NCBI RefSeq assembly: GCF_003427025.1
Contig: NZ_QVAI01000003.1
Location: 186,001-250,000 of the forward strand
Direction: 5' to 3'
DNA length: 64,000 bases
From: Jiangella endophytica
GTDB lineage: Bacteria; Actinomycetota; Actinomycetes; Jiangellales; Jiangellaceae
Positions within the stretch are counted from its first letter, which is position 1. Each line of letters starts with the position of its first letter. Both the position numbers and the translations under genes were made by a program. Below are positions 29,687 to 56,008 of the stretch, piece after piece. The notes beneath the pieces were generated by a model. That model worked only from the letters and a program-made list of their open reading frames with translations. It did not search any database and was not told the DNA's origin.

Positions 29687-29709
29687 GCGCAATTCGAGGG
29701 AGAAACGAC

Positions 29710-33005: not shown

Positions 33006-33483
33006 GGCGGACTACCTGGGCGGCGAGCCGACCAGCTCGAACCGGTTCCTCTTCGAGGTCGACGGTGTCGAGATCGGGACCTTCCGCGAGGTGCGTGGCC
33101 TGGAGGTGACGGCCGTGCTGGAGGAGTACGCCGAGGGCGGTGAGAACGGCTACGTCCATCGTCTCCCCGGCCGGTTGAGCTGGCCCAATCTGGTCTTCCG
33201 GCGCGGCCTCACCCAGGGCGACGCGCTGTTCGCGTGGGTGAACAAGACCGCGGGCCAGGGCTTCGCCGCGGCCGGCGACTCGCTGGTCCGCAGCACAGGT
33301 GCCGTGACGGTCCTCGGCGAGCGCGGCGAACGGTTGCGCGCCTGGGAGTTCGACGGTGTCTTCGCGGTCCGCTGGACCGGGCCGAATTTCGACGTCGAGA
33401 GCGCGCACTCCTTGGAGGAGGAGCTCGAGGTGGCGCACAACGGTTTCCGGTCGCGGACCTCGAGCGGATCGGGTGCCACGTGA
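32998..33483 (+). CDS. Inner tube protein 2 (tube initiator, Pvc5/Afp5 type)
   Basis: 161 residues of the gp19-like tube family, but diverged from tube 1: SSNRFLFEVDGVEIGTFREV, RGLEVTAVLEEYAEGGENGY, RGLTQGDALFAWVNKTAGQG and LRAWEFDGVFAVRWTGPNFD. The second tube paralogue usually forms the ring that joins spike and tube. The last 13 residues are Ser/Gly-rich. Confidence 0.92.
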   Translation: MPEADYLGGEPTSSNRFLFEVDGVEIGTFREVRGLEVTAVLEEYAEGGENGYVHRLPGRLSWPNLVFRRGLTQGDALFAWVNKTAGQGFAAAGDSLVRSTGAVTVLGERGERLRAWEFDGVFAVRWTGPNFDVESAHSLEEELEVAHNGFRSRTSSGSGAT

Positions 33484-36527: not shown

Positions 36528-37180
36528 TGGCGACGGAGAAGGCGTTCCTGGAGATCGAGGGCGGTGAACGGCTGCCGTGCCTGTTCAACCCGGCCCAGCT
36601 CACCGTGGGCAGGACGAACGAGTGGGCGGCCGACCGGCTGCCGGGCAAGGGTGTGCCGACGCTGCGCTACGCGGGCGCCCGATCCGGTTGGCTGCGTCTG
36701 GAGCTGTTCTTCGACACCACCCACGACGGCAGCCCGGTGACGAAGTACACGGGGAAGATCGTCGGCCTGATGGAGGTCGACCTGAATCTCCCCGGGACGG
36801 ACGAGACCACGAACAACGCGCGCCCGCCGTACGTGACGTTCCACTGGGGCGACCTGCACTCGTTCAAGGCCGTCGTCAGTGACCTGGAGCTGGCGTTCAC
36901 CTACTTCTCGTCCGCCGGGGTGCCGCTGCGGGCCCGGCTCTGGCTGACGCTGCGCCAGTACGAGCCGTCGAACGCGTTCGGGCCGCAGAACCCGACGTCG
37001 GGGACACCGCGTCCGCACCGGGTGCACCGGGTCCGGCCAGGCGAGACGCTGGACCGGATCTCGGCCGCCTACTACGGCGACGCCACTCGCTGGCGGGTGC
37101 TGGCCGGGGCGAACGCCATCGCCGACCCGCTCGACCTGCGGCCCGGCCGCCTGCTCTCGATCCCGAGGCTGGAATCGTGA
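36527..37180 (+). CDS. LysM-containing baseplate protein (Pvc7/Afp7 type)
   Basis: 217 residues from GTG 36527. Residues 1-155 (EKAFLEIEGGERLPCLFNPA, VGRTNEWAADRLPGKGVPTL, LRLELFFDTTHDGSPVTKYT) match the tail-hub adaptor domain. Residues 167-214 are a LysM domain (HRVRPGETLDRISAAYYGD, WRVLAGANAIADPLDLRPGR). In phage tails and CIS this protein joins the spike complex to tube and baseplate; the LysM motif here is structural and need not bind peptidoglycan. Confidence 0.93.
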   Translation: MATEKAFLEIEGGERLPCLFNPAQLTVGRTNEWAADRLPGKGVPTLRYAGARSGWLRLELFFDTTHDGSPVTKYTGKIVGLMEVDLNLPGTDETTNNARPPYVTFHWGDLHSFKAVVSDLELAFTYFSSAGVPLRARLWLTLRQYEPSNAFGPQNPTSGTPRPHRVHRVRPGETLDRISAAYYGDATRWRVLAGANAIADPLDLRPGRLLSIPRLES

Positions 37181-39392: not shown

Positions 39393-41318
39393 ATGCCGTT
39401 GCCCGCACCGAACCTGGACGACCGGCGGTTCCAGGACATCGTCGACGAGGCGAAGCGGCTGATCCCGCGGTACTGCCCCGAGTGGACCAACCACAACGTC
39501 GCCGACCCCGGCGTCGCGCTGATCGAGCTGTTCGCGTGGATGAGCGAGAGCGTGATCTTCCGGCTCAACCAGGTGCCGGAGAAGCTCTACGTGCACTTCC
39601 TCAACCTCGTCGGCATCGAGCCGTTCCCGCCGTCGGTGGCGCGGGCCGACCTCACGTTCTGGCTGTCCGCGGCGCTGGACCGGACGGTGGTCGTGCCGGC
39701 CGGCACCCCGGTGGCGACGGCGGGCGCGCCGGACCGGGTGGTGTTCGCCACCGTTGACGAGCTCGCGATCCGTCCGCCGCGGCTGACCGGGCTGATCACC
39801 TCGGACGCGGCCGAGCGGATCAGCGACCGCTGGAGCGACTTCACCGTCCTCGGTCTGCCGGTCGAGTGCTTCTCGCCGCGGCTGACCCCGGGGGACGCGG
39901 TCGTCCTCGGGTTCGCGGAGAGCCTCGCCGGCGCCGCCGTCCGGTTCACCATCGCCGCCGAGGCCGAGGGCATCGGGGTCGATCCGCGTCGCCCGCCGCT
40001 GGTGTGGGAGGCGTGGACGGGGGAGGCCTGGGTGGCCGCGGCCGTGCACCGCGACACCACCGGCGGGCTGAACCGCGACGGCGAGATCGTGCTGCTCATC
40101 CCGCGCGAGCACCGGTCGTTGCGCCTGGGCGACCGGACGGCGTACTGGGTGCGCGGGCGGCTGCGTGAGCCCGACCCCGGTCAGCCGACCTACCGTCGGC
40201 CGCCGCGGATCCGGTCGCTCGAGGTGGCGACCATCGGCGGCACGACGGCGGCCGAGCACGCCAGCGCCGTCCCGGCCGAGTCGCTGGGCCGCTCCGTCGG
40301 CGCACCGGGCCAGGTGTTCGCCGTCTCGGCGGCTCCCGTCCTGCCCAGGCGCGGCGACGAGGTGGTGCGGGTCGTCGACCGTGACGGGGCGCGGACCTGG
40401 ACCGAGGTGCCCGACTTCGCCGACAGCGGCCCGGACGATCGGCACGTCGTGTGGGACGCGGCGACGGGCGAGGTGCGGTTCGGGCCACGGGTGCGCTATC
40501 CCGACGGCAGCAGCCGCCAGCACGGTGCCGTTCCTGCCGACGGCGCCGAGATCGCCGTCAGCGGCTACCGCACCGGCGGCGGCCGGTCCGGCAACGTCGG
40601 CACGCACACCCTCACCGAGCTGCTGACGACCGTCCCTTACGTCGCGTCGGTGACGAATCTGGCACCGGCGGCGGGCGGCGTCGACGCCGAGACCGTCGCC
40701 GAGGCGAAGGTGCGTGGCCCGCTGACGCTGCGCACGGGGCGCAGGGCGGTGACCGCAGGCGACTTCGAACGGCTGGCCCGTGAGGCGTCGGCGCAGGTGG
40801 CGCGGGCACGGTGTCTGCCCGGCGACGGCACCGCGCGCGTCATGCTCGTCCCGCACGTGCGCAGCCATCCGCGCGACCACCGGCTGGACGACTTCGCGCT
40901 CACGCCGCACCTCCTCGACACCGTCGGCACGCACCTGGACCGGCACCGGCTCGTCGGCACCGGCGTCGAACTGGCCACGCCGTACTACCAGGGCGTCAGC
41001 GTGGTGGCCATGGTCCGTGCGGCGCCTGGACGGCCCGCCGAGCTGGTCAGCGGCCGCATCGTCGAGGAGCTCACCCGGTACGTGAACCCGCTGACCGGCG
41101 GGGCCGACGGCGCCGGCTGGCCGTTCGACGCCGACCTCAGTTTCGCCGCCGTCTCGCAGCTGATCGAGGCGGTCGACGGCGTGGACCGCGTGGACGAGGT
41201 GCTGCTGTTCGAGTACGACCTGCGCACCGGCCGCCGGCTGGGCAGCGGACGTGACATCATCCGGCTGTCGCCGGACTCGTTGTTCCTGTCCGCCGCCCAC
41301 CAGGTGGTGGTCCGGTGA
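39393..41318 (+). CDS. Baseplate J-like protein (TIGR02243 type)
   Basis: 641 residues from ATG 39393 with GAGGAG upstream. LPAPNLDDRRFQDIVDEAKR, CPEWTNHNVADPGVALIELF and AWMSESVIFRLNQVPEKLYV are typical of the putative large baseplate component family. The C-terminal third (GDFERLAREASAQVARARCL, and the YVNPLTGGADGAGWPFDADL block) is the baseplate J/gp47 part. It forms the wedge of the baseplate. Afp/PVC systems carry two such proteins; only one is found here. Confidence 0.93.
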   Translation: MPLPAPNLDDRRFQDIVDEAKRLIPRYCPEWTNHNVADPGVALIELFAWMSESVIFRLNQVPEKLYVHFLNLVGIEPFPPSVARADLTFWLSAALDRTVVVPAGTPVATAGAPDRVVFATVDELAIRPPRLTGLITSDAAERISDRWSDFTVLGLPVECFSPRLTPGDAVVLGFAESLAGAAVRFTIAAEAEGIGVDPRRPPLVWEAWTGEAWVAAAVHRDTTGGLNRDGEIVLLIPREHRSLRLGDRTAYWVRGRLREPDPGQPTYRRPPRIRSLEVATIGGTTAAEHASAVPAESLGRSVGAPGQVFAVSAAPVLPRRGDEVVRVVDRDGARTWTEVPDFADSGPDDRHVVWDAATGEVRFGPRVRYPDGSSRQHGAVPADGAEIAVSGYRTGGGRSGNVGTHTLTELLTTVPYVASVTNLAPAAGGVDAETVAEAKVRGPLTLRTGRRAVTAGDFERLAREASAQVARARCLPGDGTARVMLVPHVRSHPRDHRLDDFALTPHLLDTVGTHLDRHRLVGTGVELATPYYQGVSVVAMVRAAPGRPAELVSGRIVEELTRYVNPLTGGADGAGWPFDADLSFAAVSQLIEAVDGVDRVDEVLLFEYDLRTGRRLGSGRDIIRLSPDSLFLSAAHQVVVR

Positions 41319-41860
41319 GGCCGCCGCAGTGGCTGGTCACCCAGATGCCGACCGGCATGCTGGACGACGACTTCTTCGTCCGGTTCCTCTCGATCTTCCA
41401 GCACGGCGCCGACTCGCTGGCCGAAGGCGCGGACAACCTCGAGCACCTGGGCGACGTCACCGTCGCCCCGGACGCGATGGTGCGCTGGCTGGCAGGCTGG
41501 ATCGGGCTCGACGGCCTGGATCCGTCGCTGCCCGGCCGCGCCGCACGCACCGTCGTCCGGGCCTCGGCGCAGACGCTGGCCTGGCGCGGCACCCGGCACG
41601 GCCTGACCCGCACGCTGGAGGTCCTCAGCGGCGGGCCGGCCGAGGTGGTCGACGGCGGCGGCGTCTGGCTGGAGGGGGAGGCGCCGCCCGACCCGGCCTG
41701 GGTGCGGATGACGGTGTCCGCGACGGGCTGGCTGTCCGAGCCGGACTTCGCCGCGGTCGTCGCCGACGAGGTCCCCGCGCACGTACGGGCGCAGTTGTGG
41801 GTGGGCGACCGGATGATCTGGACGTCGGACGGAGGCGGCCATGGCCCTGGATCGCACTGA
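41315..41860 (+). CDS. Tail protein I-like baseplate protein (TIGR02242 type)
   Basis: 181 residues from GTG 41315, overlapping the J-like gene by four bases. FFVRFLSIFQHGADSLAEGA, RWLAGWIGLDGLDPSLPGRA and SAQTLAWRGTRHGLTRTLEV match the P2 gpI-like domain that completes the baseplate wedge. Its end overlaps the zinc-ribbon gene by 20 bases. Confidence 0.9.
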   Translation: MRPPQWLVTQMPTGMLDDDFFVRFLSIFQHGADSLAEGADNLEHLGDVTVAPDAMVRWLAGWIGLDGLDPSLPGRAARTVVRASAQTLAWRGTRHGLTRTLEVLSGGPAEVVDGGGVWLEGEAPPDPAWVRMTVSATGWLSEPDFAAVVADEVPAHVRAQLWVGDRMIWTSDGGGHGPGSH

Positions 41861-42425
41861 TCCCGAACCGCGCGTCGCGCCGGCCCGCGTCGACGTCACC
41901 CCGGTCGCGCTGGAGCCGCTGGACCCGCCGCCGGCGGCGGTACCGGCCGGACCGGTCGCCGCCACGGCCGTCGGCCCCACACCGGCCGTGGGCGCGGCCG
42001 AGCCCGTCGTGTGCCCGCGCTGCGGCACGCCCGGCCTGGTCGACCTGGCCCGGCGCGACGCCGCCGGCTTCTGCGCCCGGTGCGACTATCCGCTGTTCTG
42101 GGTGGTCCGCCAGTCCGCGGCCGGTGCGGCCGACGCCGGCGACGACGCCCGCCGCCGGCTGCCCGGCACCGTCGGCGCGCAGACCATCGCGTCGCTGCCC
42201 TGCCCGCACTGCGCCGAGCCGAACCCGCCGCGGGCCGAGGTGTGCCTGCGCTGCGGCCGGCCGATGGTGGTCGTGCCCGCGCCGGTCCCGGTGGCCGTCG
42301 TCGTGCCGCCGCCGCCCGCTCCGGCGCCGCCGCCGGCTCCCTGGTATCCGCCGCTCTGGCTCGTGCTGTTCGTCGTCGGCCTGATCGTCCTCACCGGTCT
42401 CGGCCTGGTCGCGCTGCTCGGCTGA
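41841..42425 (+). CDS. Zinc-ribbon protein with C-terminal membrane anchor
   Basis: 194 residues. Residues 1-55 are Pro/Ala-rich. Two four-cysteine zinc ribbons follow: Cys58, 61, 78, 81 and Cys121, 124, 135, 138. A Pro-rich spacer leads to one hydrophobic helix at about 170-192 (LWLVLFVVGLIVLTGLGLVA) that ends the protein, so it is tail-anchored with its ribbons in the cytosol. It is the last gene of the structural operon and overlaps the baseplate gene, so it may link the baseplate to the membrane. No known CIS component was recognised. Confidence 0.8.
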   Translation: MALDRTDPEPRVAPARVDVTPVALEPLDPPPAAVPAGPVAATAVGPTPAVGAAEPVVCPRCGTPGLVDLARRDAAGFCARCDYPLFWVVRQSAAGAADAGDDARRRLPGTVGAQTIASLPCPHCAEPNPPRAEVCLRCGRPMVVVPAPVPVAVVVPPPPAPAPPPAPWYPPLWLVLFVVGLIVLTGLGLVALLG

Positions 42426-42437: not shown

Positions 42438-45400
42438 TCACCCCTCGTCGGCGAGCACCGTGACGACGACCGGTGCGGAGTCGACGGCGTGCGGGCCCGT
42501 GCCGTAGCGGACGATGAACGTGTGCTCGCCGGCCGCGAGCTCCTCGACGGCGAACTCGCCCTCGCCGCCGGCGCCGGGCGACACCGCGGCGCCCACCGGC
42601 CCGTCGGCGTCGTGCAGCCGCAGCGTGCGCCCGCTGACCACGGGGTCGACGACCGCGAGCAGCTCGACCAGGTCGCCGGCGCCGACCGCTCCCGCGGGCC
42701 CGGTCAGCGTGACCAGCGGCTCGACGACGGTCACGGTGAGCAGGTCCTGGGAGCCGCCGTGATCGGCGGACTCGAAGACGGCCTCGACCGTGTGGCCGCC
42801 GGGGTCGTCGAACACGTGCTCCAGCTCGGCGGTCCCGTCGTCGACCGGCACGGAGCCGATCTCGTCGCCGTCGACCACGAACGTGACGCTGCCGCCGCCG
42901 GCCGCGGCGCCGGCGGACGTCACCGTCGCGCCCAGCGTCGCCGCCGCGCCGGCGACCGGTTGCTCGGGGGTGACCGCCAGCTCCAGCGTCGTCGCGGGCG
43001 GGCCGGTCAGCGTGAACCGGGCCGGCACGTCGGCCGCGCCGAGGGGCACGTCCACGGTGGCCGGCGTGACGGTCCAGCCGGCGAACCCGCCGGGCACCTC
43101 GGCGGCGACGGTGTACGCGCCGGCGGGCAGGTACGCGGTGACCGTGCCGGCGTCGACCAGCAGGTCGTCGGCGAACACCGTCGCGTCGTCGGCGCCGGTG
43201 ATCACGACGTCCACCGACCCGGGCGCGTCCTGGCCGGCGGACCGGGCATCCATGCGCACCCGCACCTCGGTCACCTCGATGGTGAGATCACGGCTGCCGT
43301 CCTCGGGCGGGTCGCTGCGGTGCACACCGACGTGCCCGGCCGGACCGGTCAGGGTCGCGGACCAGTCACCGGGCGGCACCTGGGCGAACGTGGTCGCGTA
43401 GGTGGAGCCGCCGGAGCGGACCACCGGCTGTGGCGCCGGCGCCGGGTCGCCGCCGGCGCTGGTCAGCGTCACCATGGCCCCGGTGAGATCCCAGCCGTTG
43501 ACCGCCTCGGCGGTCACGGTGACCGGCTGCGCCTCGGCATAGAGGACGATGTCGAAGGCGACGATCTGCCCGGCCGCCACCGTCACCGTCCGGGTCGTGG
43601 GCGTGTACGGCTGCCCGGCCCGCGGACGGACGTCGACCAGGTAGGTGCCGTCGGCCAGCGCGGCGAACTCGAACACCGGCCCCGCCTGGACCGGGTCGTC
43701 CCCGGCCGCCGGGCAGCGGTCGTCGACCACGTCCTCGACCCGGCACAGCCAGGTGTCGACCTCGTCGAGCGGCTCGGCCGGGTTGGTGCCGGACTGCCCG
43801 CTGACCGTGCCCTGAACCGTGTTCGTCAGCTGCGTCACCGGCACGTTGAAGGTGCTGGCGGCGCCGGGCTCGGGCCGGACGGTGAGGGTCAGCGGCGCGT
43901 AGTTCTCGCCGCTGACCCGCAGCGTCTGCGGGACGGGCGGCACGCCGGTGAACCGGTAGCAGCCGGTGCCCCCGTCGCAGGGGGCCGCCGTCTGGACGAC
44001 GCCGCCGCGCAGCAGTTCGACGGTCATGCCCGGCAGCGGCTGCGGCGGCTCGCCGCCGGTTCCGGGCACGTAGACGTTGACGAACACGTCGACGGGTTCG
44101 GCGGTGACCGCGACGACGAACGGGTCGGCGTTGCCGTCGGGGTAGACGGCCTGGTGGTCCGCGGTGATCTGGACCGGCAGCGGCGTCGCGTCGAAGGCGT
44201 ACCCGTCGGGCGGGTCGGCCCGCACCTCCCACGTGCCCGGCAGCAGCCCGGCGACGTCGCGGCTGCCGGTGACGGTGAACCGGCCGCCCGGCCCCGACAC
44301 CGCGGAGAACTCCAGTCCGGACGCGTGCCGTGCGACGACGGTGCCGCCCACGAGCGGTGCCGCCACGACCTCGCCGTCGACGACGGTGTGCGACCGGAGC
44401 ACGCCGCTGATCTCGCCCAGCTTCACGAGCGCGAGCTGGTAGGAGCCGACGCCGTCGGGTGGCACCTGGAACGGGGCCGGGTCCGGCTCCGGCACGCCGC
44501 CGGTGACGGGCCGCCCGGCGGTGAAGCTGTCGAACCGGTAGCCGGCCGCCTCGACCCGCACGGTGTAGCGGCCGCCCGGTGGCAGCAGGCTGGGCAGTTC
44601 GGTGAAGACGGTGCGGTTGGTGCCCGGCTCGGCGGCCCGGGTCTGTTCCGGCACGCCGGGCGCGCTGAGCACCAGCCGGGCGCCGTAGACGGGTTCGCCC
44701 GCGGCATCGACGGTGGCGAGCTCGAGGGCGCCGTGCCGCGACAGCACGAACCCGTCGAGCTGCTGGCGGCCGCCGGTCGTGACCAGGGCGACGTCCACCT
44801 GGACGCTGACCTCGGCGTAACCCGGTAGCCGTGCCTCGACGACGTACCGGCCCGGACGTGCCAGCGTCGCGCGGGTGTCGCCGGGACCCTCGCCGCACTC
44901 GTTCGTGTAGCCGGTGTCCACCCGCTGGGCGGGGTCGGACCAGATCAGGCATCCGCCGGGGGTGACGGTGATCCGGGTCGCCTCCGCGCCCGGCGGGGCA
45001 GCCGTCACCGTCAGCTCGGCCTGCGACAGGTCGGCGGCGGCCTCCGGGACCAGCTGGACCCGGCCCTGCACCGGCCGTCCGGTGGGGGTCAGGGTGAGCC
45101 GCAGCTGCTGCCCTTCGGAGACGGCGACGCCGATGAGCCGGGACCGCTCGTAGCCGTCCTTCGTGGCGGTGAGGTCGACCCGTGAGTCGACGATCGGCAG
45201 CACGGCCTCCGGGAGCGGGCTCCGGCCGGGTTCGGGCACGACCGCGAACAGGCCGTCGGCGTCGGTGAGGACGGTGGCGCTCTGGTGGACCGGCAGCAGG
45301 CCGTCGTAGCCGACGATGCCGGTGACCTGCACCTGCACGCCGCCGACCCCGACCGGGCCGGTGTCGTCGAGCTCGTGCGCCACCTGGCCGGTGAAGCTGC

Positions 45401-48400
45401 GCGAGGCGCCGGTCAGGGTGAGGGCCAGCGGGATCTCGTTGTTGAGGCCGGCCGTCGAGAGCACCTCGCCGGTGAGCACCCGCGGCGGGTCGGACCCGGG
45501 GACCGGCCAGCCGAACAGCACCCGGTACTGCACCCCCGGCCGCAGGTGGGCGACGGCGTACACGCCGCTCGCCTCGTCGGTGCGGTCGACGCGGACCTGC
45601 TCGGTGACGTCGTCGTCGCCCGCGAACACGCGGACGGTGGCGCCGGCGGCCGGTTGCGATGCGCTCTCGCCGTCGTTGGCCTGCACCGTGACGCGCAGCC
45701 GGCCGAGCCGGTCCAGCGCGGCGTCGTAGCGGCGGACGTCGCCGGGGAACAGCGTGATGGTGACGGGGTCGACGGGACGGTACTCCGGGTCGCCGGGCCG
45801 CACGGACACGTCGTAGCCGCCCGACGGCAGGCCGGTCAGCTCGTAGCCGCCGTTGACGCCGGTGAACGCGCAGTGCGCGCCGCCCTCGATCCGGCACCGC
45901 GGCGCGTCCGGGTCGGGGGTGACGGGGACGCAGTCGCCCAGGCTCTCGGGATCGGCGCCGGCCGGTGCGGCGACGACGCAGGTGCCGTCGGGGACGGCGC
46001 CCACGCGGGCGGTGATCGTGCCGACGACGGACGGCGCCGGCAGCAGCGCCGCGACCGGTGCGTTCACCGTCGCGTCCATGGGGACCTCGACGCGGATCCG
46101 CTCCGGCTCGTAGCCGGGCGCGGTGACCGTCAGCTCGTACAGGCCCGGCAGCAGGCCCGGTTCGTCCGGCCCGGGCAGCGTGTAGCTCGCGTCCGGGGCG
46201 AACGTGGTGGTCAGCTCGCGCGGCGCGCCGTCCAGGCCGGTGGCGGTGGTGGCCACCGTCACCAGGCACGGCTCGTCGGGAAGCAGCGCCGGACAGCTGA
46301 CCGGCCCGCCGCCGGTGCTCGCGTCGACGGCCCGCCCGACGATGACCGACGTGTCGGTCAGCCCGTTGCCGGGGATCGGTGTGAGCGCCAGGTCCGCCGT
46401 CGCCACGGACCCCGCCGTCACCTCGACCCGCGCATACGCCGTGACGTGCCCGAACACCTCCGCGGACAGCACGTAGGAACCGGGCGCGACGCCGGAGACG
46501 CGGTAGCCGCCGGTGCCGGCCGCGCTCATCACCTTGTACGCCGCGCCCTCGTCGCCGGAGAGCGTGAGCCCGCCGGCCAGCGGCCGGCCGGCGTCGTCGG
46601 TGACCACGCCGGCCACCTCGCCACCTGCCGGGACCAGCCGGGTGTCCAACCGGCGCACGGGCCGGCCGGGGTCGGTGAGCGTGACCTCGCGGGTCTGCGT
46701 CTGGTAGCCGTCGCCGGCGACGGTGACCGTGTAGCGGCCGGGCAGCGGGAGGTCCGGCAGCGTGAACAGACCGGGGCCGCCGGCCTCGCCGCCGGTGGTC
46801 GCCGTGGTGGCGGTGCGGACGGTCCGGCCGTCGTCGGCCGTGACGGTGACGCCGCCGAGCCCGCGGGTGGCACCGGTGGCGTCGCGCCCCGTGACCTGGC
46901 CGGTCAGCGTGGTGACGCCGCGGCGCAGCGCGAGGTCCCGCGCCTCCTCGCCGCCCGCGTCCAACTCGACCAGGGCCGCGCTCGCACCGAGGCCACCGGC
47001 GGTGGCGGTGACGAGGTACGTCGACGGCGCCGACAGTCCGTCGACCGCCCAGCTGCCGACGTCACCGGTGGTGCTCGTGCTGGTGGTGACGGTGACGGTG
47101 CCGTCGGTGAGGGTCAGTTCCGCCCCGCCCACCGGGCCGTCCGGTCCGGTCACCGTGCCGGACAACCGGCCGTCGCCCGGCCGCAGCTCCACCTCGATCG
47201 GCTCGGCGGCCGCCGTGGCGTCGACCACGCGGCGTTCGGTCTGGAAGCCGGCTTTCGAGACCGTGACCAGGTAGTGGCCGCCGGTGCCGAGACCCGCGAA
47301 CGCCCAGGCGCCGTCCTCGTTGGTGACGGTGCTGCGGGTCTGGTCGACGGCGGCGCCGCCGGCCCTTCCGGGGGCCGCGGCGGGCGGCGGGACCTTCGCG
47401 TCGTCGCCGGACTCGCCGAACGCCGACGTGGGCGCGACGGAGACGGTGACGCCGCCGGGCTGATCGGCCTGCACCAGGCCGCTGAGCCGCAGCTCCTCCG
47501 TGGCGGCGCCGTGGTCCTCGCCGGTGCCGCCACCGCCGGCGTCGCCCTCGCCCTCGCCCCCGCCCTCGCCGGAGCCGGAGCCGGTGCCGGCGCCCGGGCG
47601 CCCGCCGTCGTCCGCGGCCGTACCGGCCTCGGCCTGCCGTTCCTCGAGCCGGTCGACCAACCGGGGGAGCCCGACGACAGCCGCCGCGACCCAGACCGCG
47701 AGCACCGCCGCCAAGGCGACCGCGCGCTTCGCCACCGACCCGATCAGCGGCCTGGCCACGACCACACCGTGCGCCGTCGCCGGGGCGTGTGGCCCGCGCG
47801 CGACCGCCGAGTAGCCGAACCGTGTCGTGTCGCCCGTGAACCGGAGCCGGCGCGGGCCGACCCGCCCACCCACCGCCAGCGCCGCCCGGCCCGGCACCTC
47901 GACCGTGCGCCGCCGGGGGGTGGCTCGCAGACCGTCCGGCGCGTGCAGCTCGAGGTCGACCGTCGCCGGTTCGGGCGCGGCGTTGGTCAGGACGAGGCGG
48001 ATGCCGCGGCGCCAGGCGGTGCGCACCTCGCCGGGTTCCGCGGACACCGTGACCGAAGGCGGCCGGTCGACGGTGAGCACGGACTCGGCGACCGTGGCCC
48101 GGCTGGTGACGGCGCCGGTCGCCGGGTCGCCGCTCTGCGCCGCCACGACGAACGGGTAGGCGGCGGCGACCGTCCCCGGCGGCGGCAGGAGCTCCAGCTC
48201 GACCGTCGCGACGGTTCGCGGCGGCAGCCCGACCACGCGCGCCGGGACCGGTGCCCACCCGCCGTCGAGCCCGAGGACGGTGAGTGTGACGTCGCGCGGG
48301 CCATCGGCGCCGTGGTGCACCCGCACCGTCAGTGCGGCGGGCTGCCCTGCGGCGCCCTGCGGCTCGCGGGTGACCTCGACGACCGGCCCGGCCTCGATCA

Positions 48401-48401
48401 T
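42438..48401 (-). CDS. Giant single-pass membrane protein with carboxypeptidase-regulatory-like repeats (1)
   Basis: 1987 residues from ATG 48401. Residues 1-220 are a beta-rich region of the COG1470/NEW3 kind (VVEVTREPQGAAGQPAALTV). ARPLIGSVAKR precedes a transmembrane helix at about 226-245. An acidic Gly/Ser linker (250-290) follows, then more than a dozen prealbumin-like repeats, each with a G-x-V-T start and a Y-x-V-T-x-x-x-x-G-Y/F end (for example GRYTVTVAGDGYQTQTREVT). The end holds Ig-like units (TVEAVFESADHGGSQDLLTV). There is no signal peptide, so the N-terminus is probably cytosolic and the repeats outside. It overlaps the previous gene in ATGA. The design resembles the Streptomyces CIS membrane adaptor CisA. 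Confidence 0.85.
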   Translation of the reverse strand: MIEAGPVVEVTREPQGAAGQPAALTVRVHHGADGPRDVTLTVLGLDGGWAPVPARVVGLPPRTVATVELELLPPPGTVAAAYPFVVAAQSGDPATGAVTSRATVAESVLTVDRPPSVTVSAEPGEVRTAWRRGIRLVLTNAAPEPATVDLELHAPDGLRATPRRRTVEVPGRAALAVGGRVGPRRLRFTGDTTRFGYSAVARGPHAPATAHGVVVARPLIGSVAKRAVALAAVLAVWVAAAVVGLPRLVDRLEERQAEAGTAADDGGRPGAGTGSGSGEGGGEGEGDAGGGGTGEDHGAATEELRLSGLVQADQPGGVTVSVAPTSAFGESGDDAKVPPPAAAPGRAGGAAVDQTRSTVTNEDGAWAFAGLGTGGHYLVTVSKAGFQTERRVVDATAAAEPIEVELRPGDGRLSGTVTGPDGPVGGAELTLTDGTVTVTTSTSTTGDVGSWAVDGLSAPSTYLVTATAGGLGASAALVELDAGGEEARDLALRRGVTTLTGQVTGRDATGATRGLGGVTVTADDGRTVRTATTATTGGEAGGPGLFTLPDLPLPGRYTVTVAGDGYQTQTREVTLTDPGRPVRRLDTRLVPAGGEVAGVVTDDAGRPLAGGLTLSGDEGAAYKVMSAAGTGGYRVSGVAPGSYVLSAEVFGHVTAYARVEVTAGSVATADLALTPIPGNGLTDTSVIVGRAVDASTGGGPVSCPALLPDEPCLVTVATTATGLDGAPRELTTTFAPDASYTLPGPDEPGLLPGLYELTVTAPGYEPERIRVEVPMDATVNAPVAALLPAPSVVGTITARVGAVPDGTCVVAAPAGADPESLGDCVPVTPDPDAPRCRIEGGAHCAFTGVNGGYELTGLPSGGYDVSVRPGDPEYRPVDPVTITLFPGDVRRYDAALDRLGRLRVTVQANDGESASQPAAGATVRVFAGDDDVTEQVRVDRTDEASGVYAVAHLRPGVQYRVLFGWPVPGSDPPRVLTGEVLSTAGLNNEIPLALTLTGASRSFTGQVAHELDDTGPVGVGGVQVQVTGIVGYDGLLPVHQSATVLTDADGLFAVVPEPGRSPLPEAVLPIVDSRVDLTATKDGYERSRLIGVAVSEGQQLRLTLTPTGRPVQGRVQLVPEAAADLSQAELTVTAAPPGAEATRITVTPGGCLIWSDPAQRVDTGYTNECGEGPGDTRATLARPGRYVVEARLPGYAEVSVQVDVALVTTGGRQQLDGFVLSRHGALELATVDAAGEPVYGARLVLSAPGVPEQTRAAEPGTNRTVFTELPSLLPPGGRYTVRVEAAGYRFDSFTAGRPVTGGVPEPDPAPFQVPPDGVGSYQLALVKLGEISGVLRSHTVVDGEVVAAPLVGGTVVARHASGLEFSAVSGPGGRFTVTGSRDVAGLLPGTWEVRADPPDGYAFDATPLPVQITADHQAVYPDGNADPFVVAVTAEPVDVFVNVYVPGTGGEPPQPLPGMTVELLRGGVVQTAAPCDGGTGCYRFTGVPPVPQTLRVSGENYAPLTLTVRPEPGAASTFNVPVTQLTNTVQGTVSGQSGTNPAEPLDEVDTWLCRVEDVVDDRCPAAGDDPVQAGPVFEFAALADGTYLVDVRPRAGQPYTPTTRTVTVAAGQIVAFDIVLYAEAQPVTVTAEAVNGWDLTGAMVTLTSAGGDPAPAPQPVVRSGGSTYATTFAQVPPGDWSATLTGPAGHVGVHRSDPPEDGSRDLTIEVTEVRVRMDARSAGQDAPGSVDVVITGADDATVFADDLLVDAGTVTAYLPAGAYTVAAEVPGGFAGWTVTPATVDVPLGAADVPARFTLTGPPATTLELAVTPEQPVAGAAATLGATVTSAGAAAGGGSVTFVVDGDEIGSVPVDDGTAELEHVFDDPGGHTVEAVFESADHGGSQDLLTVTVVEPLVTLTGPAGAVGAGDLVELLAVVDPVVSGRTLRLHDADGPVGAAVSPGAGGEGEFAVEELAAGEHTFIVRYGTGPHAVDSAPVVVTVLADEG

Positions 48402-50977
48402 TCCCAGTCTCCGTTCGGAGTGGTCCCGGTCGAGGCGGCGGCCGCGACGTTCAGCGTCACGGCGGCCGCCTCGCTGGCCGCGACGGTGAACGGCGGCGAG
48501 GCGGCGGCGGGCGCCGCGCCGGCCTGCAGGCGCACGTCGACGACGTAGTGCTCCGGGGCATCCAGCTCGGCGAAGAAGGCCTGACCGTCGCTGCCGGTGC
48601 GGACGGAGGCGACCGGTGCCGCGGCGGTGCCGTACTCGGTGGCCCGGTAGAGGTCGACGACGGCGCCGGCCACCGGGCCGTCGTCGGCGACGACGGTCGC
48701 CGTGACCGAGGCGGGCGCGGCCAGTTGGAGGTCGAGGTCGCGGTTCCCGCCGGCCTCGAGGGTGACGGTGGTGGCGGCCGGCGTGGAGCCCGGCCGCGAC
48801 GCCGTGACGGTGTACGTGCCGGGCGGCAGCTGCGGGAGCACGTAGCGGCCCACGTCGCCGGCCGGCTGCGACGACGACGTCACGGCGTAGGTGCGCGATC
48901 CGGACACCGCGGTGACGGTGACGTTGCCGGCCGGGCCCACACTGCCGTCGACGGCGTTGCGCAGGCTCACACTGCCGGTGAGGTCGGCGCCCGCCGGGTG
49001 CAACGCGACGGTGACGCCGTCGGCCGGCGACCCTCCGGCGGTGATGGCGCCGAACGCGTCCAGCATCACCTGCACGGTCTGCGCGGCGAGGCCGGGGCCG
49101 GCGAACGTCACGGTGTAGGTGGCCGGGACGGGCAGCCCGCCCAGGCGCCACGAGCCCGCCTCGCCGGTGCTCTGCGTGACGGTGCTCAGCGACGTCGTGC
49201 CGTCGCTGACGGTGACCTCGACGCCCGTCGCCGGTCCGCCGCCGGGCAGCTCCGTCACCCGGCCGAACAGTTCGCCGGCGTCGGTGCCCAGCGTCACGGA
49301 CACCCCGGTCAGCTGCTGCCCGGCGGACAGGTCGAGCGTGAGCGTCTGCGCGGCGTGCCCGGGTGCCGCGACCACGACGGTGAACGTGCCCGGCGTCGGC
49401 AGGTTCCGCAGCGTGAACGCGCCGACGTCGCCCTCGGTCAGCGACACCGTCCGCGCGGTGGAGTCGCCGGCCGTCGCCACCACGGACGCGCCGCCGATCG
49501 GCCCGGCGGCGCCCCGCACCTCGCCGGCGATGATGCCGTCGCCCTCGCGCAGCCGGATCGTGATGCCGGTGCGTTCCTCACCGCCGGTGAGGTCCACGCG
49601 CTGGACCTCGGTGGCGTAGCCGGGCTTGCCGACGACGACGTCGTACACCCCTGGCGAGGGCACGCCGTCGATCTCGAACGAGCCGTCGGAGCCGACCGGC
49701 ACCTCACGCAGGACGGCGCCGGCCGCGCCGCCCTGCGGGTCGGCCACGGCGCCGTCGGCCACGCCCGTCTCGGCCTGGCCGCCGAGCTGCTCCAGCGGGA
49801 TCCGCAGGCTCACCGTCGCCCCAGAGACGTCGGCGCCCTCGACGGTGCCGGCCAGCACCGCCGGAAGTCCGCCGAGTGCCACGTCGGCCGCGTCGGGGCT
49901 CTGGCCGCCCGTGACCTCGACCGGTGCCGCCGCCGCGCTGTCCATCGCCGCCGGGTACCAGAGGTCGGAATAGCCGGCGCCGCGGAAGCGCAGCAGGTAG
50001 CCGCCGTCGGACAGTCCGTCGACCACGTACGTGCCGTCGTCCTCGGTCGCGGTGGTGGCCACCGGCGCGGTGGGGTCGTCCACGGCGTACGCCTCGACGG
50101 CGACGCCGGGCAGCGGCGCACCGGTGGTGATGAGGCGGACGGTCCCGGTCAGCGTCGCTCGGCCGGCGCCGGCGGCGTCGTCGCGCGACTGGGCCACCTC
50201 GATGGCGAGGTCGCGATCGGCGGCCGAGCGGTTCACCACGCCTGCCAGCGCGGCGGTGATGACGACGGCGAACACCGTCACGGCGGCGAGCAGACCGGCC
50301 AGGGCGATCGTGCCGCGACCCAGCACCGGGCGCTGCACCATGCTGCCGGGCGCCTCGCCCAGCGGCTGCGCGCCCGCCGCGGCCGCGGCGTCGACGTCCG
50401 GCTCCAGCCGCACGGCCAGCGCCCGCACCGCGGGCGAGCCGAGCAGCGGGCGGCGAGCGCGCGCCTCGACCCGGGCGGACAGGCTCTCCCCGGGCGCCAG
50501 CCGCACCGACGCGGGCACGAACCGGAAGCCGATGCGGTCCTCGGGGTCGGTGCCGGCGAACGCACCCTCGACCGTGGTGTTGCCGGTGTTGCGCACCGTG
50601 ACACCGAACGAGGCCCGCCGCCCGGCCGTGACGGCGGCCGGGTCGAGCGTGACGGTGGTGCCCGGCGCCGCGGCGACCCGCAACTCCAGCTCGGCGACCG
50701 TGGCGTGGTGGGGCGGCGTGGTCTCGCGCACCTGGACGGCCAGCCGGCGCTCGCCGGCGGGCAGGTCGGGCGGCGGCGTCAGCGTGACGGTGACGACGAC
50801 GCTGCTCCCGGGGAACAGCGTCGGCGTCGCGTCGTCGACCGTGACCCAGGCCGGGTCGGCGCCGAGCACCCGCACCTGATAACCGCTGATGATCTCGCCG
50901 GTGTTGGTGATCTCGACCCGTACCGTCGCGGGCCCGCCGGTGGCCTCCAGCACCTGCGGCGCCGCGGTCACGCGCAC
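48398..50977 (-). CDS. Large single-pass membrane protein with carboxypeptidase-regulatory-like repeats (2)
   Basis: 859 residues from GTG 50977 (GTG 50971 is an alternative). Residues 1-215 hold two NEW3-like beta units (VRVEITNTGEIISGYQVRVL and SFGVTVRNTGNTTVEGAFAG). QRPVLGRG leads into the helix at about 222-247 (IALAGLLAAVTVFAVVITAA). The outer part has about six repeats, such as GTYVVDGLSDGGYLLRFRGA and GVYDVVVGKPGYATEVQRVD. Paralogue of its two neighbours. A frame open to 51127 is not needed because the upstream gene ends at 50979. Confidence 0.86.
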   Translation of the reverse strand: MRVTAAPQVLEATGGPATVRVEITNTGEIISGYQVRVLGADPAWVTVDDATPTLFPGSSVVVTVTLTPPPDLPAGERRLAVQVRETTPPHHATVAELELRVAAAPGTTVTLDPAAVTAGRRASFGVTVRNTGNTTVEGAFAGTDPEDRIGFRFVPASVRLAPGESLSARVEARARRPLLGSPAVRALAVRLEPDVDAAAAAGAQPLGEAPGSMVQRPVLGRGTIALAGLLAAVTVFAVVITAALAGVVNRSAADRDLAIEVAQSRDDAAGAGRATLTGTVRLITTGAPLPGVAVEAYAVDDPTAPVATTATEDDGTYVVDGLSDGGYLLRFRGAGYSDLWYPAAMDSAAAAPVEVTGGQSPDAADVALGGLPAVLAGTVEGADVSGATVSLRIPLEQLGGQAETGVADGAVADPQGGAAGAVLREVPVGSDGSFEIDGVPSPGVYDVVVGKPGYATEVQRVDLTGGEERTGITIRLREGDGIIAGEVRGAAGPIGGASVVATAGDSTARTVSLTEGDVGAFTLRNLPTPGTFTVVVAAPGHAAQTLTLDLSAGQQLTGVSVTLGTDAGELFGRVTELPGGGPATGVEVTVSDGTTSLSTVTQSTGEAGSWRLGGLPVPATYTVTFAGPGLAAQTVQVMLDAFGAITAGGSPADGVTVALHPAGADLTGSVSLRNAVDGSVGPAGNVTVTAVSGSRTYAVTSSSQPAGDVGRYVLPQLPPGTYTVTASRPGSTPAATTVTLEAGGNRDLDLQLAAPASVTATVVADDGPVAGAVVDLYRATEYGTAAAPVASVRTGSDGQAFFAELDAPEHYVVDVRLQAGAAPAAASPPFTVAASEAAAVTLNVAAAASTGTTPNGDWE

Positions 50978-50978
50978 G

Positions 50979-53237
50979 TCAGCGCACCGCCTCGAGCCGC
51001 AGGTGCGCGACGGTGTCGGCGGCCGGCTCGACCTCGGCGACCGCGCTCGCCAGCACCCGGCCGTCGACCCGGACCGACACCGTGTAGACGCCGGCCGGCA
51101 CCGCGGCCAGCACGTACCGGCCGCCACCGGTCGACGTCGTGCTCCACACCGTCGCGCCGTCGGTGAGCTCGACCGTCAGCCCGGCCGCCGCACCGTCCTC
51201 GGCGTCGGTCACCCGGCCGGTGACCCGGCCCAGTCCGTCCAGCATCGTCACGGTGAGCGGCGGCGTCGCGGCCGACCCGGACACCGTCACGGGGACCGTC
51301 TGCGGCTGATAGCCGTCGTGTTCGAACGTGAGCGTGTACGCGCCCGGCGGCAGCCCGCCGACGGTGAAGCCGCCGACGGCCCCGTCGGTCAGCGTCGTCG
51401 TGGTCACCGGCTCGGCCAGCCCGCCGACCGTCACCGTCGCGCCGCCCAGGCCCGCACCGCCGGGCGTCAGCAGGGTGCCGCTGACGGTGCCGGCGCCGCC
51501 CGTCAGCGACACCGCGAGGTCGGTGACGGCCTGTCCGGCGGCCAGTTCCACCACCGCGGTCTGCGCCGCGTAGCCGTCGAGCACGAACGTCAGGACGTAG
51601 GTGCCCGGCGTCGGCAGGCCGGGCAGCACGAACCGGCCGACCTCGCCGACGGTGGGCGTGCCGGCGCTGATCGCCTCGTCGCCGACGGTGGTGCTGACGG
51701 TGACCCCGCCCAGTGCCCGGTCCCCGTCGGTGACGACACCGGCGATCCGGCCGTCGCCGGTGGCCAGCCGCACCTCGGAGACGAACCGCTGCTGCCCGCC
51801 GGTGACGTGCTCGACGACGGTGGCGGGGCGGTACCCGTCGGCCTCGAAGGTCAGCTCGTAGCTGCCCGGTGCCGGCAGCCCCGCCAGCGTGTAGGAGCCG
51901 TCGGCCGCGGTGGTCGCGGTGTACTCCGCGGGCGAGGCGCCGTCGTCGCCGGTCCACGCGGGCCGGGCGGTCACCGTCGCCGGGACGGGCTCGACGGCGT
52001 CGCCCGGGTCGACGGCGCCACGCAGCGACGCCGGCTCGCCGGTGACGACGACGTCCGTGCCGGAAGTGGTGCGCTGGGCGGTCGCGGCGACCGGCTCGGC
52101 ACCCGCGTCGTCGGGAGCGGCCGGGTACCAGACCGGCGGGTAGCCGTCGGCTCCGAAGCGCACCAGGTAGTCGCCCGGGAACAGCCCGGCCAGCGTGTAC
52201 CCGCCGTCGGCCTGGCTCGCCGCCGAACTGACCACGACCAGCCCGCCGGGCGTGCGGCGCAGCGCCTCGACGGTGATCTGGCCGACCGGCTCACCGCTGG
52301 CCGCGCCGGTGACGGTGCCGGTGATGGTGCCTCCGACGCCGGGCGGCAGCAGGCCGTTCTTGGGCAGCGCCCCGGCGGGCGCCTCGGCGGCCGGCGCCGC
52401 CGTGCCTCCGGCCGTGCCGTCCGCCGTGTTCTGCGCCGCCGGCTGCGTCGCCGCGAAGAACGAGGCCGGCGCCGTCCTGACCGCCGGCTCCGCGCCCAGC
52501 ACCTGGGTGATGCCGAGCAGGAACGCCGCCGCCCACAGGGCGACGATCGAGGCGAGCACCAGGACGGTGAGCAACCCACGCCCGACGACCGGTCGCTGCC
52601 GCAGCGTGAGCGGCAGGCTCGCCTCGGCGTCGGGGCCGCTGACCTGCGCGGTGAGGATGCGATCGAGGTCGCCGCCCAGCCAGCGCCGCGGCGCTCGGGC
52701 CGTGACCAGCGTCGTGGCGACGGCACCGGGCCCCAGCCGCAGCGTCGCCGGGGTGAACCGGAGGCTGGTGGCCCGGCCGGCGTCGGCGGCCGTGCAGGTG
52801 AGGTCCAGCGTGGTGTTGCCGAGGTTGGCCACCTCGACGGCGAACTCGGCGCGCCCACGGCTGCGCACCACACTCGGCCGGGCCGCCAGCGCGACGGCCG
52901 GGCGTCGCGGCACGGCGAGGTCGAGGTCGACGGTCTCGGCGGCGGGTCCCGCGTGCTGTGAGTCCAGCGCGACGACGACCGGATGCCGCCCGGCCGGATG
53001 GGTGGGCGGCACCGTGACGGTGACGGCGATGGTGCCCTCGGCGTCGGGGAAGAGGGACAGCAGCGGCGGCCGCGCCGTCACGGCGCCGGGCGGCAGCCCC
53101 AGGGCGCGCACGGTGAACCCGTCGATGACGTCGGCGGTGTTGGTGACCGTGAGCAGCAGCTCGGCGCTGCCTCCGGGCTCGACGTCGAGTCGTGCGGCGC
53201 TGGCCGTGACCCGCGGGCCGGTGCCGACGCGGCTCAC
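50979..53237 (-). CDS. Large single-pass membrane protein with carboxypeptidase-regulatory-like repeats (3)
   Basis: 752 residues from GTG 53237, overlapping the DUF4255 stop by four bases (GTGA). Residues 1-215 hold two NEW3-like units (SAELLLTVTNTADVIDGFTV and AEFAVEVANLGNTTLDLTCT). RQRPVVGRG precedes the helix at about 221-243 (LLTVLVLASIVALWAAAFLL). The outside part has about six prealbumin-like repeats (GGYTLAGLFPGDYLVRFGAD, GSYELTFEADGYRPATVVEH, GAYTLTFEHDGYQPQTVPVT). First of the three paralogues in the operon. Confidence 0.87.
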   Translation of the reverse strand: MSRVGTGPRVTASAARLDVEPGGSAELLLTVTNTADVIDGFTVRALGLPPGAVTARPPLLSLFPDAEGTIAVTVTVPPTHPAGRHPVVVALDSQHAGPAAETVDLDLAVPRRPAVALAARPSVVRSRGRAEFAVEVANLGNTTLDLTCTAADAGRATSLRFTPATLRLGPGAVATTLVTARAPRRWLGGDLDRILTAQVSGPDAEASLPLTLRQRPVVGRGLLTVLVLASIVALWAAAFLLGITQVLGAEPAVRTAPASFFAATQPAAQNTADGTAGGTAAPAAEAPAGALPKNGLLPPGVGGTITGTVTGAASGEPVGQITVEALRRTPGGLVVVSSAASQADGGYTLAGLFPGDYLVRFGADGYPPVWYPAAPDDAGAEPVAATAQRTTSGTDVVVTGEPASLRGAVDPGDAVEPVPATVTARPAWTGDDGASPAEYTATTAADGSYTLAGLPAPGSYELTFEADGYRPATVVEHVTGGQQRFVSEVRLATGDGRIAGVVTDGDRALGGVTVSTTVGDEAISAGTPTVGEVGRFVLPGLPTPGTYVLTFVLDGYAAQTAVVELAAGQAVTDLAVSLTGGAGTVSGTLLTPGGAGLGGATVTVGGLAEPVTTTTLTDGAVGGFTVGGLPPGAYTLTFEHDGYQPQTVPVTVSGSAATPPLTVTMLDGLGRVTGRVTDAEDGAAAGLTVELTDGATVWSTTSTGGGRYVLAAVPAGVYTVSVRVDGRVLASAVAEVEPAADTVAHLRLEAVR

Positions 53238-53924: not shown

Positions 53925-55859
53925 TCAGCCCGCCGGCGGCCAGCCGGCCGGCAACCGGCGGCCCAGCTTGCGGTACTCGCGGGCGGTCGCCGCCACCAGC
54001 AGGCCCATGCCGACGGCCGCGCCGGCGACGGCGGCGTCGTAGGCGGCGGCGAGGACGATGTTGCGGATGTCCGCGCCGCTCAGCTCCGCCGCCGCGGCCA
54101 GGGAAGCGAGGTCCGGGGGATCGGCCGGGTCCGTGCCGGCGAGCTGGCGGACGTGGTGCGCCCAGAGGCGCTCGCGGGTGGCCGGGTCCGGGTCCGGGAA
54201 GTGGATGACGAAGTGCAGCCGCCGGGAGAACGCCGCGTCCAGGTTGCCGCGCAGGTTCGTCGCCAGGACCGTGATGCCGTCGAACCGCTCCATCCGCTGC
54301 AGCAGGTAGGACACCTCGAGGTTCGCGTAGCGGTCGCGCGAGTCCTGCACGGCCGAACGGCTGCCGAAGATCGCGTCGGCCTCGTCGAAGAACAGCACGA
54401 CGTCGTGCGTCTCGGCCTCGTGGAACACCCGCTCCAGGTTCTTCTCCGTCTCGCCGACGTACTTGTCCACGAGTCCCGCGAGATCCACCTGGTAGAGGTC
54501 GAGACCCAGCGCATCGGCGACGACGTGCGCGGCCAGCGTCTTGCCGGTGCCGGGACCGCCGCTGAACATGGCGGCGATGCCGGTGCCTTTGCCGCCCTTG
54601 CCCTGCACGGCGCCCTGCGCGAGCACGTCGCCGCGGTGCCGGGCCCACTGGACCAGCCGGGTCAGCTCCGCCCGGGCGTCGGGCGGCAGCACGATGTCCT
54701 CGAACGAGGTCGCCACCGGCGCCGTGGGCCCGGCGTGCCGGTGGACGGGTCCGCCGCCGCTGAGCCGCCGGACCGACTCGCGGACCAGCGCGGCGTCGGC
54801 GCCGCCGCCGCGGACGGCGGCGAGCATGCGGGTGTGCTCGGCGGCGACGGCGATCTGGCCGGGCCCGAGCCGCGCACCGGCGGCGATCACCGCGTCGCCA
54901 CCGGCCTCGTCGCCGAGCTCGCGGGCCCACAGCTGGGCCCGCGAGGCGACCGGCAGCGGTGGCACCGCCGCGATGTACGGGAGCCGGCGGGTGGCCCGCG
55001 GGTCCCAGGCGCGCTGCCCGACCGCCACCACCGGCACGGCCGCCTCGAGCAGCCGGTCGAACAGCCACCTGTGCTCGTCGCCGGCCAGGTCGTCGGCGCC
55101 GGCCAGCACCAGGCCGGCGGTCTGCAGCGCCGCCTCGCGGGTCAGCTCGGTCAGCAGGCCCGGCAGGTCGCAGCCGGCCGGGCGCCGGCTGAGGTCGGCG
55201 ACCAGCCAGTCGACGCCGAGGCGGGCGAACGCCGCGGCCGCGGTCTCGGCGCCGGGGGAGCCCGGCGGCCCGTGCAGCCAGCAGAGCCGGACCCCGGACC
55301 GGATGGCCTCGGCCAGCTCGGCGCCGTGCTCGGCCGCGAGCGGCTCGGCGTGCAGCACGAGCCGCTGCAGCTGGGGCTCGGGCAGGTCGTCACCGACCAG
55401 GTGGGCGACCACGCGGTCGGCGATGCGCAGGCACCGGGTCAGCGCCGGGCCGTCGCCGGTGAGACCGGCCAGGCCGTGCCGGACCAGCCGGCCCGACGAC
55501 GACAGCCTGGCCCGGCCGGCCGCCGACAGCGCCGGCACCCCGCACAGGTGCAGCGCCAGGGCGGCCGTCGGGCGTCCCTGCGTCGCCTCACCGCCGAGCA
55601 GCGCGAACACCGTCGCGAACGAGGGATCCGCCTCGGCGGCGAACGCGGTCAGCAGCAGGTCGGTCTCGAGCGGGTCCAGGCCGAACACGGCGGCCGTGCT
55701 CGCGAGCAGGTCGTCGCCCTCGGCCGACTCGCCCGCGTGGTCGCGGCGCAGTGCGTCGACCGCGGCGGCCAGCCGCGGGCCGGCCGCGTCGCCGGGCAGC
55801 TCGCGCTGCTTCACCACGTCAGCGACCGCGTCCACCAGTCGACCCAGGCTCGGTGCCAT
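53925..55859 (-). CDS. AAA+ ATPase of contractile injection system (Pvc15/Afp15 type)
   Basis: 644 residues. The N-terminal 400 residues hold a winged-helix-like and a degenerate AAA region (LCWLHGPPGSPGAETAAAAF lacks a normal Walker A Lys). The active AAA domain has Walker A GGPGTGKT (434-441), Walker B VVLFFDEADAIFG (about 487), sensor 1 ITVLATNLRGNLDAAF and the Arg-finger region SRRLHF. Afp15/Pvc15 proteins help particle assembly. TAGCAT lies 12-7 bases before ATG 55859 (leaderless), the likely promoter of the whole minus-strand operon. Confidence 0.94.
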   Translation of the reverse strand: MAPSLGRLVDAVADVVKQRELPGDAAGPRLAAAVDALRRDHAGESAEGDDLLASTAAVFGLDPLETDLLLTAFAAEADPSFATVFALLGGEATQGRPTAALALHLCGVPALSAAGRARLSSSGRLVRHGLAGLTGDGPALTRCLRIADRVVAHLVGDDLPEPQLQRLVLHAEPLAAEHGAELAEAIRSGVRLCWLHGPPGSPGAETAAAAFARLGVDWLVADLSRRPAGCDLPGLLTELTREAALQTAGLVLAGADDLAGDEHRWLFDRLLEAAVPVVAVGQRAWDPRATRRLPYIAAVPPLPVASRAQLWARELGDEAGGDAVIAAGARLGPGQIAVAAEHTRMLAAVRGGGADAALVRESVRRLSGGGPVHRHAGPTAPVATSFEDIVLPPDARAELTRLVQWARHRGDVLAQGAVQGKGGKGTGIAAMFSGGPGTGKTLAAHVVADALGLDLYQVDLAGLVDKYVGETEKNLERVFHEAETHDVVLFFDEADAIFGSRSAVQDSRDRYANLEVSYLLQRMERFDGITVLATNLRGNLDAAFSRRLHFVIHFPDPDPATRERLWAHHVRQLAGTDPADPPDLASLAAAAELSGADIRNIVLAAAYDAAVAGAAVGMGLLVAATAREYRKLGRRLPAGWPPAG

Positions 55860-55865
55860 GGCCGG

Positions 55866-55871
55866 ATGCTA
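55866..55871 (-). promoter_or_regulatory. -10 box of the ATPase operon (leaderless)
   Basis: TAGCAT on the minus strand, ending seven bases before ATG 55859. It would drive ATPase, DUF4255 and the three membrane protein genes. Confidence 0.5.
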
Positions 55872-56008
55872 GGCCCGTCCGGCCCGCCCGCGGGAGGCCG
55901 GCGGCGCCCGGCCGGCGCGATTCATGCACACGTGCTTGTGCCGCGTCCGGCCCGCCCGCGGCGACGCGCTGCTTGGCTGGACGCAGCCGGCCGACGACAG
56001 GGGAGAGC

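Follow-up and report, generated by a model that had tools for sequence, protein, structure and literature searches.

Three tandem paralogous proteins of the contractile injection system gene cluster of Jiangella endophytica, predicted to be membrane partners related to Sco4256-4258

Three tandem paralogous proteins encoded with a contractile injection system (CIS) of Jiangella endophytica, here called A, B and C, appear to be distant members of the Sco4256-4258 family of Streptomyces, on the basis of their architecture, gene position, copy number and co-occurrence with the CIS. There is about an even chance that these proteins are membrane-resident partners of the CIS that face the cell wall; they may keep the CIS at the envelope and not themselves be the poison that is injected. 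This bears on how a cytoplasmic, free-floating CIS reaches the envelope and fires. The window analysed is the whole stretch of 64,000 nt from assembly GCF_003427025.1 (contig NZ_QVAI01000003.1, positions 186,001-250,000 of the forward strand), in which the following genes are located.

29626..30096, plus strand, DUF4280/PAAR-like tip protein
30246..31817, plus strand, sheath
31846..32325, plus strand, tube protein 1 (gp19-like)
32998..33483, plus strand, tube protein 2 (gp19-like)
36527..37180, plus strand, CIS_tube + LysM hub protein
37177..38946, plus strand, spike (Phage_base_V)
39393..41318, plus strand, baseplate J-like wedge protein
41315..41860, plus strand, Tail_P2_I-like wedge protein
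41841..42425, plus strand, protein at the position of CisA, 194 aa, with four CxxC motifs (zinc ribbons) and a C-terminal transmembrane (TM) segment from about residue 175
42438..48401, minus strand, protein C, 1987 aa
48398..50977, minus strand, protein B, 859 aa
50979..53237, minus strand, protein A, 752 aa
53234..53818, minus strand, Pvc16_N (DUF4255) cap-type protein (E 6e-25; ATG start picked by the authors)
53925..55859, minus strand, AAA+ ATPase of the CIS (AAA, E 2e-25)
55991..58420, plus strand, eCIS_core (PF13699) protein, candidate effector (E 2.8e-29; start chosen by the authors within the open frame 55751-58420)

The genes for A, B and C lie head-to-tail downstream of the AAA+ and DUF4255/Pvc16 genes, as stated in a first-pass annotation of this DNA, and this minus-strand run is convergent to the plus-strand CIS cluster of tip, sheath, tubes, hub, spike, wedges and zinc-ribbon protein. 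The eCIS_core gene is divergent from the ATPase gene. Protein lengths and gene junctions given in that annotation, with neighbours overlapping by four bases or lying one base apart, were both right on recheck. There is a four-base overlap between DUF4255 and A (GTGA), a one-base gap between A and B (TGA-c-GTG) and a four-base overlap between B and C (ATGA), thus translational coupling is likely. The genome is 7.85 Mb in 89 contigs and has a single sheath match. A protein search with residues 1-250 of A scored the 7989 candidates with most words in common; among the matches listed, the closest named relatives are from Jiangella mangrovi, Jiangella sp. DSM 45060 (92%) and Phytoactinopolyspora alkaliphila (58%).

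A, B and C have a common plan in which two Ig/PapD-like domains are followed by a single TM helix at around residue 225 and then by carboxypeptidase-regulatory-like repeats. The N-terminal regions of A and B align with 32% identity over 256 columns (E 1e-29), those of A and C over 237 columns (E 9e-6), and those of B and C over 127 columns only (E 4e-6). Shuffling of residues 1-225 gave z values of 27.5 (A-B), 11.4 (A-C) and 8.4 (B-C), indicating paralogy beyond chance. Both measures uphold the earlier claim that about 220 N-terminal residues are common to the three. Each protein has a single strong hydrophobic segment, starting at residue 225 (A), 230 (B) or 227 (C), and an N-terminus that is not hydrophobic, in agreement with the TM helix at about 221-247 and the absence of a signal peptide described before. 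The R-P-V/L-x-G motif is also present, ahead of the TM segment.

52494..52580, minus strand, TM helix of A, residues 220-248 (hydrophobicity and predicted fold)
50234..50290, minus strand, TM segment of B, 19-residue window from residue 230 (hydrophobicity)
47667..47723, minus strand, TM segment of C, 19-residue window from residue 227 (hydrophobicity)

The long carboxypeptidase-regulatory-like arrays are recognized as PF13620 in all three proteins, with whole-protein E-values of 1.1e-51 (A), 4.9e-45 (B) and 2e-55 (C); 5, 6 and 9 stretches, respectively, are individually within the limit (E 1). The N-terminal units had been called NEW3-like. A beta/Ig-type fold is borne out by the model, but NEW3 itself (PF10633) is not, its best match being E 0.011, in B. 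CARDB, a domain similar to NEW3, is at the Pfam cut-off in B (24.1 bits against 22.7). Neither PF13699 (eCIS_core/DUF4157) nor a tape-measure family is listed in the Pfam scan of A, B and C.

The N-terminus of A is predicted to fold as two Ig/ASH-PapD-like sandwiches, with a pLDDT of 95 for the N-domain model. The modelled layout of A is an Ig/PapD-like pair at about residues 9-218, the TM helix at about 220-248, a disordered linker at about 248-300 and approximately five beta domains up to residue 743. B and C have related N-terminal domains followed by their TM windows and carboxypeptidase-regulatory-like arrays, that of C being the longest of the three. The outer arrays are about 500 aa (A), 600 aa (B) and 1700 aa (C). 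By the rule of thumb that such a domain is about 3.5-4 nm long, the five domains of A would span about 20 nm and the roughly twenty of C about 70-80 nm.

A, B, C and their relatives are predicted to be single-pass proteins with the N-terminus inside and the C-terminus outside. This was assessed in 39 members, being A, B and C of the window and 36 of 64 reference relatives selected by the authors. Those excluded were mostly second copies of one gene, near-copies from genome G305 and cut genes; loci L002-L004 (the window copies), L023, L028, L029 and L031 had been removed before the reference list was made, and the start codons of the relatives were assigned by script. A strong TM segment is present in 38 of the 39, mostly at 2.2-3.3 on the Kyte-Doolittle scale, and none of the 39 has a hydrophobic window of 1.6 or more in its first 40 residues. 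Net charge is higher on the N flank of the TM segment in 27 of 38, lower in 7 and equal in 4. The N-in/C-out orientation proposed earlier stands as a prediction on these two grounds; lysine and arginine alone are higher on the N flank in just 20 of 38 (equal in 6, lower in 12).

Sco4256-4258 are CIS-associated "effectors" of Streptomyces coelicolor that have a single TM helix, a highly similar N-terminus and, in Sco4257 and Sco4258, a ricin domain, and they are encoded close to the sheath gene sco4253 (PMC10066040). Deletion of sco4256-4258 leaves about 85% of the tubes empty, against about 97% filled in the wild type, and abolishes nisin-induced death, and each of the three proteins lowers the viability of E. 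coli (PMC10066040). Sco4256 was present in all three particle preparations, as was Sco4242 (CisA); it has been called a putative toxin, and its domain 1 matches pilus chaperones by HHpred (PMC10020575). The S. coelicolor proteins are likened to A, B and C by this published description rather than by sequence alignment. Both sets have a chaperone/Ig-type N-domain, for which the fold predicted here agrees with the published pilus-chaperone match, one TM helix after it, tandem copies and a location in the CIS cluster. A, B and C differ from Sco4257 and Sco4258 in having carboxypeptidase-regulatory-like repeats and no ricin in their outer part. However, ricin does not define the family, since it is in only two of the three members and is replaced by ChW or PG_binding_1 in Streptomyces relatives.

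In genome G193, taken as Streptomyces because a protein of it is 93% like one of S. rishiriensis, two tandem genes between those for the sheath and AAA encode relatives (465-470 aa) that have this N-domain and a TM segment from residue 222. A search with a G193 relative found 219 loci; among the best 76, of which 75 are titled Streptomyces, the sheath is present at 61, AAA at 66 and both at 59, which fits the published description of Sco4256-4258. In the named Streptomyces loci the relatives sit between sheath and AAA, whereas A, B and C come after Pvc16, and the Streptomyces relatives have one ricin, ChW or PG-binding outer domain in place of long arrays.

Judged from their sequences, the outer domains of the family (carboxypeptidase-like repeats, ricin, ChW, peptidoglycan-binding and PASTA) look like binding modules, not enzymes. 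Clustering by C-terminal part took in 112 of 114 Streptomyces-type copies, those of sufficient length, and gave 17 clusters. Ricin, ChW or PG_binding_1 is over the Pfam cut-off in 16 of the 17 cluster representatives, and the remaining one, L168, has a ChW match below the cut-off. PF03498 (CDtoxinA, the cytolethal distending toxin A/C domain) is over the cut-off in four, on their ricin region, a match which we attribute to the lectin fold of a subunit without catalytic activity. In the 17 representatives of these 112 homologues, no domain of a catalytic toxin was found. For the 39 diverse members, the 25 of 35 Pfam families listed include PF13620 repeats in 22 members and PASTA in 2, and no catalytic toxin domain. 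Outer domains of wall- or sugar-binding type are in keeping with the earlier view that the outside repeats sense the wall or another cell.

A total of 296 actinobacterial genomes were searched with the N-domain alignment of A, B and C, with up to eight candidates scored per genome, so that the N-domain counts are lower bounds. An N-domain match is present in at least 31 genomes and a sheath in 31 (28 pass Pfam's cut-off and three are below it); the two occur together in at least 22 (Fisher p 3e-19, not corrected for relatedness). With a stricter N-domain set, 19 of 23 genomes have a sheath. Both genes are within 20 kb on the same contig in 14 of these 19 and on different contigs in five (G100, G124, G183, G236 and G246). 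A sheath was not found in 9 of the 31 N-domain genomes, including G091, G156 and G188 with good N-domain matches, and an N-domain was not found among the candidates scored in 9 of the 31 sheath genomes. The CIS linkage is strong yet not strict. Among 60 relatives, seven including the window's genome have a sheath, and the other six all have an N-domain match (weak in G324).

Nine clusters contain the triplet (the window, G063, G113, G123, G215, G226, G296, G305 and G316). The order Pvc16-A-B-C is found in all nine, which are not nine independent cases because four come from the window's family. Eight of the C genes terminate inside a contig and encode proteins of about 1820 to 3870 aa, and that of G063 runs off its contig. 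A tree built from 41 N-domains places A, B and C each on one side of a branch with support of 86/91, 88/94 and 93/86, these branches being present in 84, 89 and 93% of bootstrap trees. This support is moderate, none of it reaching the tool's 95/80 mark, and the root is a midpoint only. The three branches are separate from 15 of the 18 short rows, Streptomyces included. The tree is without C of G215, all G305 rows and L027, and G108 was called A by similarity alone. Given the constant order and one moderately supported clade for each, the triplication looks old, with each copy kept, and the simplest reading is that it predates these lineages. Retention of every copy argues for three non-interchangeable roles. 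The gene order, the clades and hence what looks like an old triplication with its copies kept are new. N-domain proteins of about 400 aa in G156, G091 and G188 (L016, L024 and L026), where no sheath was found, form a clade of their own (100/100).

The first-pass annotation had suggested that A, B and C are an expanded set of CisA. CisA (Sco4242) spans the membrane by a TM helix, with its N-terminus in the cytosol and a domain on the outside (PMC12237407); the cytosolic part mostly lacks structure and contains a stretch rich in Cys ahead of the TM helix (PMC12237407, PMC10020575). A, B and C share this gross plan, being CIS-linked and single-pass with a predicted cytosolic N-terminus and outside C-terminus, with binding domains as their outer part. 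An expansion of CisA itself is nevertheless highly improbable, and is disfavoured by the lack of sequence similarity, the different cytosolic part and the different gene position. Profile comparison by hhalign with two proteins assigned to the CisA type from their position and plan saw no homology (probability 0.1, E 0.6); an alignment of this kind had been proposed as a check. The cytosolic part of A, B and C is modelled as two Ig-like domains where that of CisA is for the most part unstructured and has a Cys-rich segment, and they are encoded elsewhere, whereas CisA is directly downstream of the wedge genes.

In the window, the 41841-42425 protein, which has zinc ribbons, a terminal TM segment and no outer domain, is encoded immediately behind the wedge gene, where CisA would be expected. 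It matches the zinc ribbon of CisA in profile comparison (probability 81.7, E 1.1e-5, 42 columns). Homology is likely but not sure because zinc ribbons are common, and this protein is the best candidate for the counterpart of CisA. The gene at this position is without an outer domain in all nine triplet clusters, and a CisA-type protein with one is present in all three short-type clusters where the gene was found (G193, G343 and G204); G193 carries it together with genes of the A/B/C family. Roseiflexus CIS systems are reported to lack close CisA homologues (PMC12998442), and a protein like that at 41841-42425 could be the CisA counterpart sought in such systems. Of the earlier proposal of docking or trigger proteins, a docking or envelope-facing role stands as the leading mechanism; the kinship with CisA is not supported.

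The preferred reading, that A, B and C are wall-facing membrane partners of the CIS, would start from an old triplication of which all three lineages were retained independently, their genes lying immediately behind that of the CIS cap. The proteins would be located in the cytoplasmic membrane, where the cytosolic Ig/PapD-like pair may attach to the free-floating CIS (or to its cap or baseplate). The outer rods may hold on to the cell wall or sense it, and that of C is perhaps long enough to pass beyond it. Together they could form an envelope station required for productive firing, in which the zinc-ribbon/TM protein would perform CisA's docking job and the eCIS_core protein would be the more likely cargo. 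Counted in favour are the family plan, CIS linkage, gene order, clades, N-domain model, TM segments, binding-type outer domains and eCIS_core neighbour, as well as the CisA-position gene, bare in the nine triplet clusters and with an outer domain in the three short-type ones. A bolder version, which we consider rather unlikely, is that the Streptomyces "effectors" are non-injected membrane receptors and that the Jiangella-type trio of graded length, A and B wall-deep and C wall-crossing, took over the outside-sensing of CisA, whose counterpart would thus be reduced to a mere zinc-ribbon anchor.

In AFP and PVC, the effector slot is the position immediately behind the cap gene. The location of A, B and C in this slot counts against an envelope station, as do an N-in/C-out orientation that is predicted only and a linkage that is not strict. 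A pure membrane station also leaves unexplained the empty tubes after sco4256-4258 deletion (PMC10066040), and Sco4256 is in all particle preparations, though CisA is too (PMC10020575).

The gene position, the empty tubes and the presence of Sco4256 in particles favour the alternative, published for Sco4256-4258, of injected effectors. In this view A, B and C would be carried inside the tube and expelled when the sheath contracts, after which they would insert in a membrane by the TM helix and disrupt the envelope. It is kept as a possible, if somewhat less probable, explanation because the empty-tube phenotype favours it. The PF03498 matches in Streptomyces representatives could be read in the same way, but this domain belongs to a presumably lectin-type, non-catalytic subunit, and no catalytic toxin domain was found in the 17 representatives or among the families listed for the 39 members. 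A strongly hydrophobic internal helix should, moreover, enter the membrane during synthesis, and a candidate eCIS_core cargo is encoded next door. The loss of nisin-induced death and the lowered viability of E. coli (PMC10066040) fit injection, but E. coli toxicity is reported for CisA too (PMC12237407). The Streptomyces CIS effectors Tme and Sle1, which are disordered or coiled-coil and tape-measure-related, have predicted TM helices (PMC11126660, PMC13277306), as have A, B and C, likewise in an actinobacterial CIS cluster. In contrast to these, A, B and C match no tape-measure family in the Pfam scan, and unlike eCIS_core cargo such as the neighbouring 55991-58420 protein they are without PF13699. 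A further alternative, a role of A, B and C as surface adhesins or wall proteins encoded in the operon with no CIS contact, is improbable. Their outer repeats would resemble generic adhesive arrays, and some N-domain genomes have no sheath found, but the invariant Pvc16-A-B-C order, the N-domain matches in six of six other sheath-bearing genomes among the 60 relatives and the S. coelicolor deletion phenotype (PMC10066040) speak against it.

Relatives of Sco4256 were already known in other actinomycetes, cyanobacteria and Chloroflexi (PMC10020575). The present analysis adds a trio that looks old, whose members have been retained independently, carry long outer rods and are encoded behind the cap gene. 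It also adds that the outer parts resemble binding modules more than enzymes, and that the gene at the CisA position beside the trio is bare. Whether such proteins are injected effectors or a membrane station can thereby be put to direct experiment in a species amenable to genetics.

Other genes of these clusters were observed. The eCIS_core protein is likely to be cargo of this CIS, and has tblastn matches at the equivalent place in G296, G305 and G316. The same three genomes have relatives of a big low-complexity Arg/Ala/Gly-rich frame at 33234-36527 (plus strand, start uncertain), which lies between the tube protein 2 and hub genes and has no match in the Pfam scan. In G123, two extra N-domain genes of the carboxypeptidase-repeat type (L052:1300-5885) are upstream of the same CIS cluster and outside the A, B and C branches. 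In G226, a second sheath gene lies about 16 kb from an additional N-domain gene (C1:4373474-4390648), both distant from the trio cluster of this genome. A Septum_form-domain protein with a lipobox-like start, judged by eye, is encoded at 29228-29686 (plus strand) adjoining the PAAR-like gene; the two genes are also side by side in G123, G226, G296, G305 and G316, and the protein is apparently an exported CIS neighbour.
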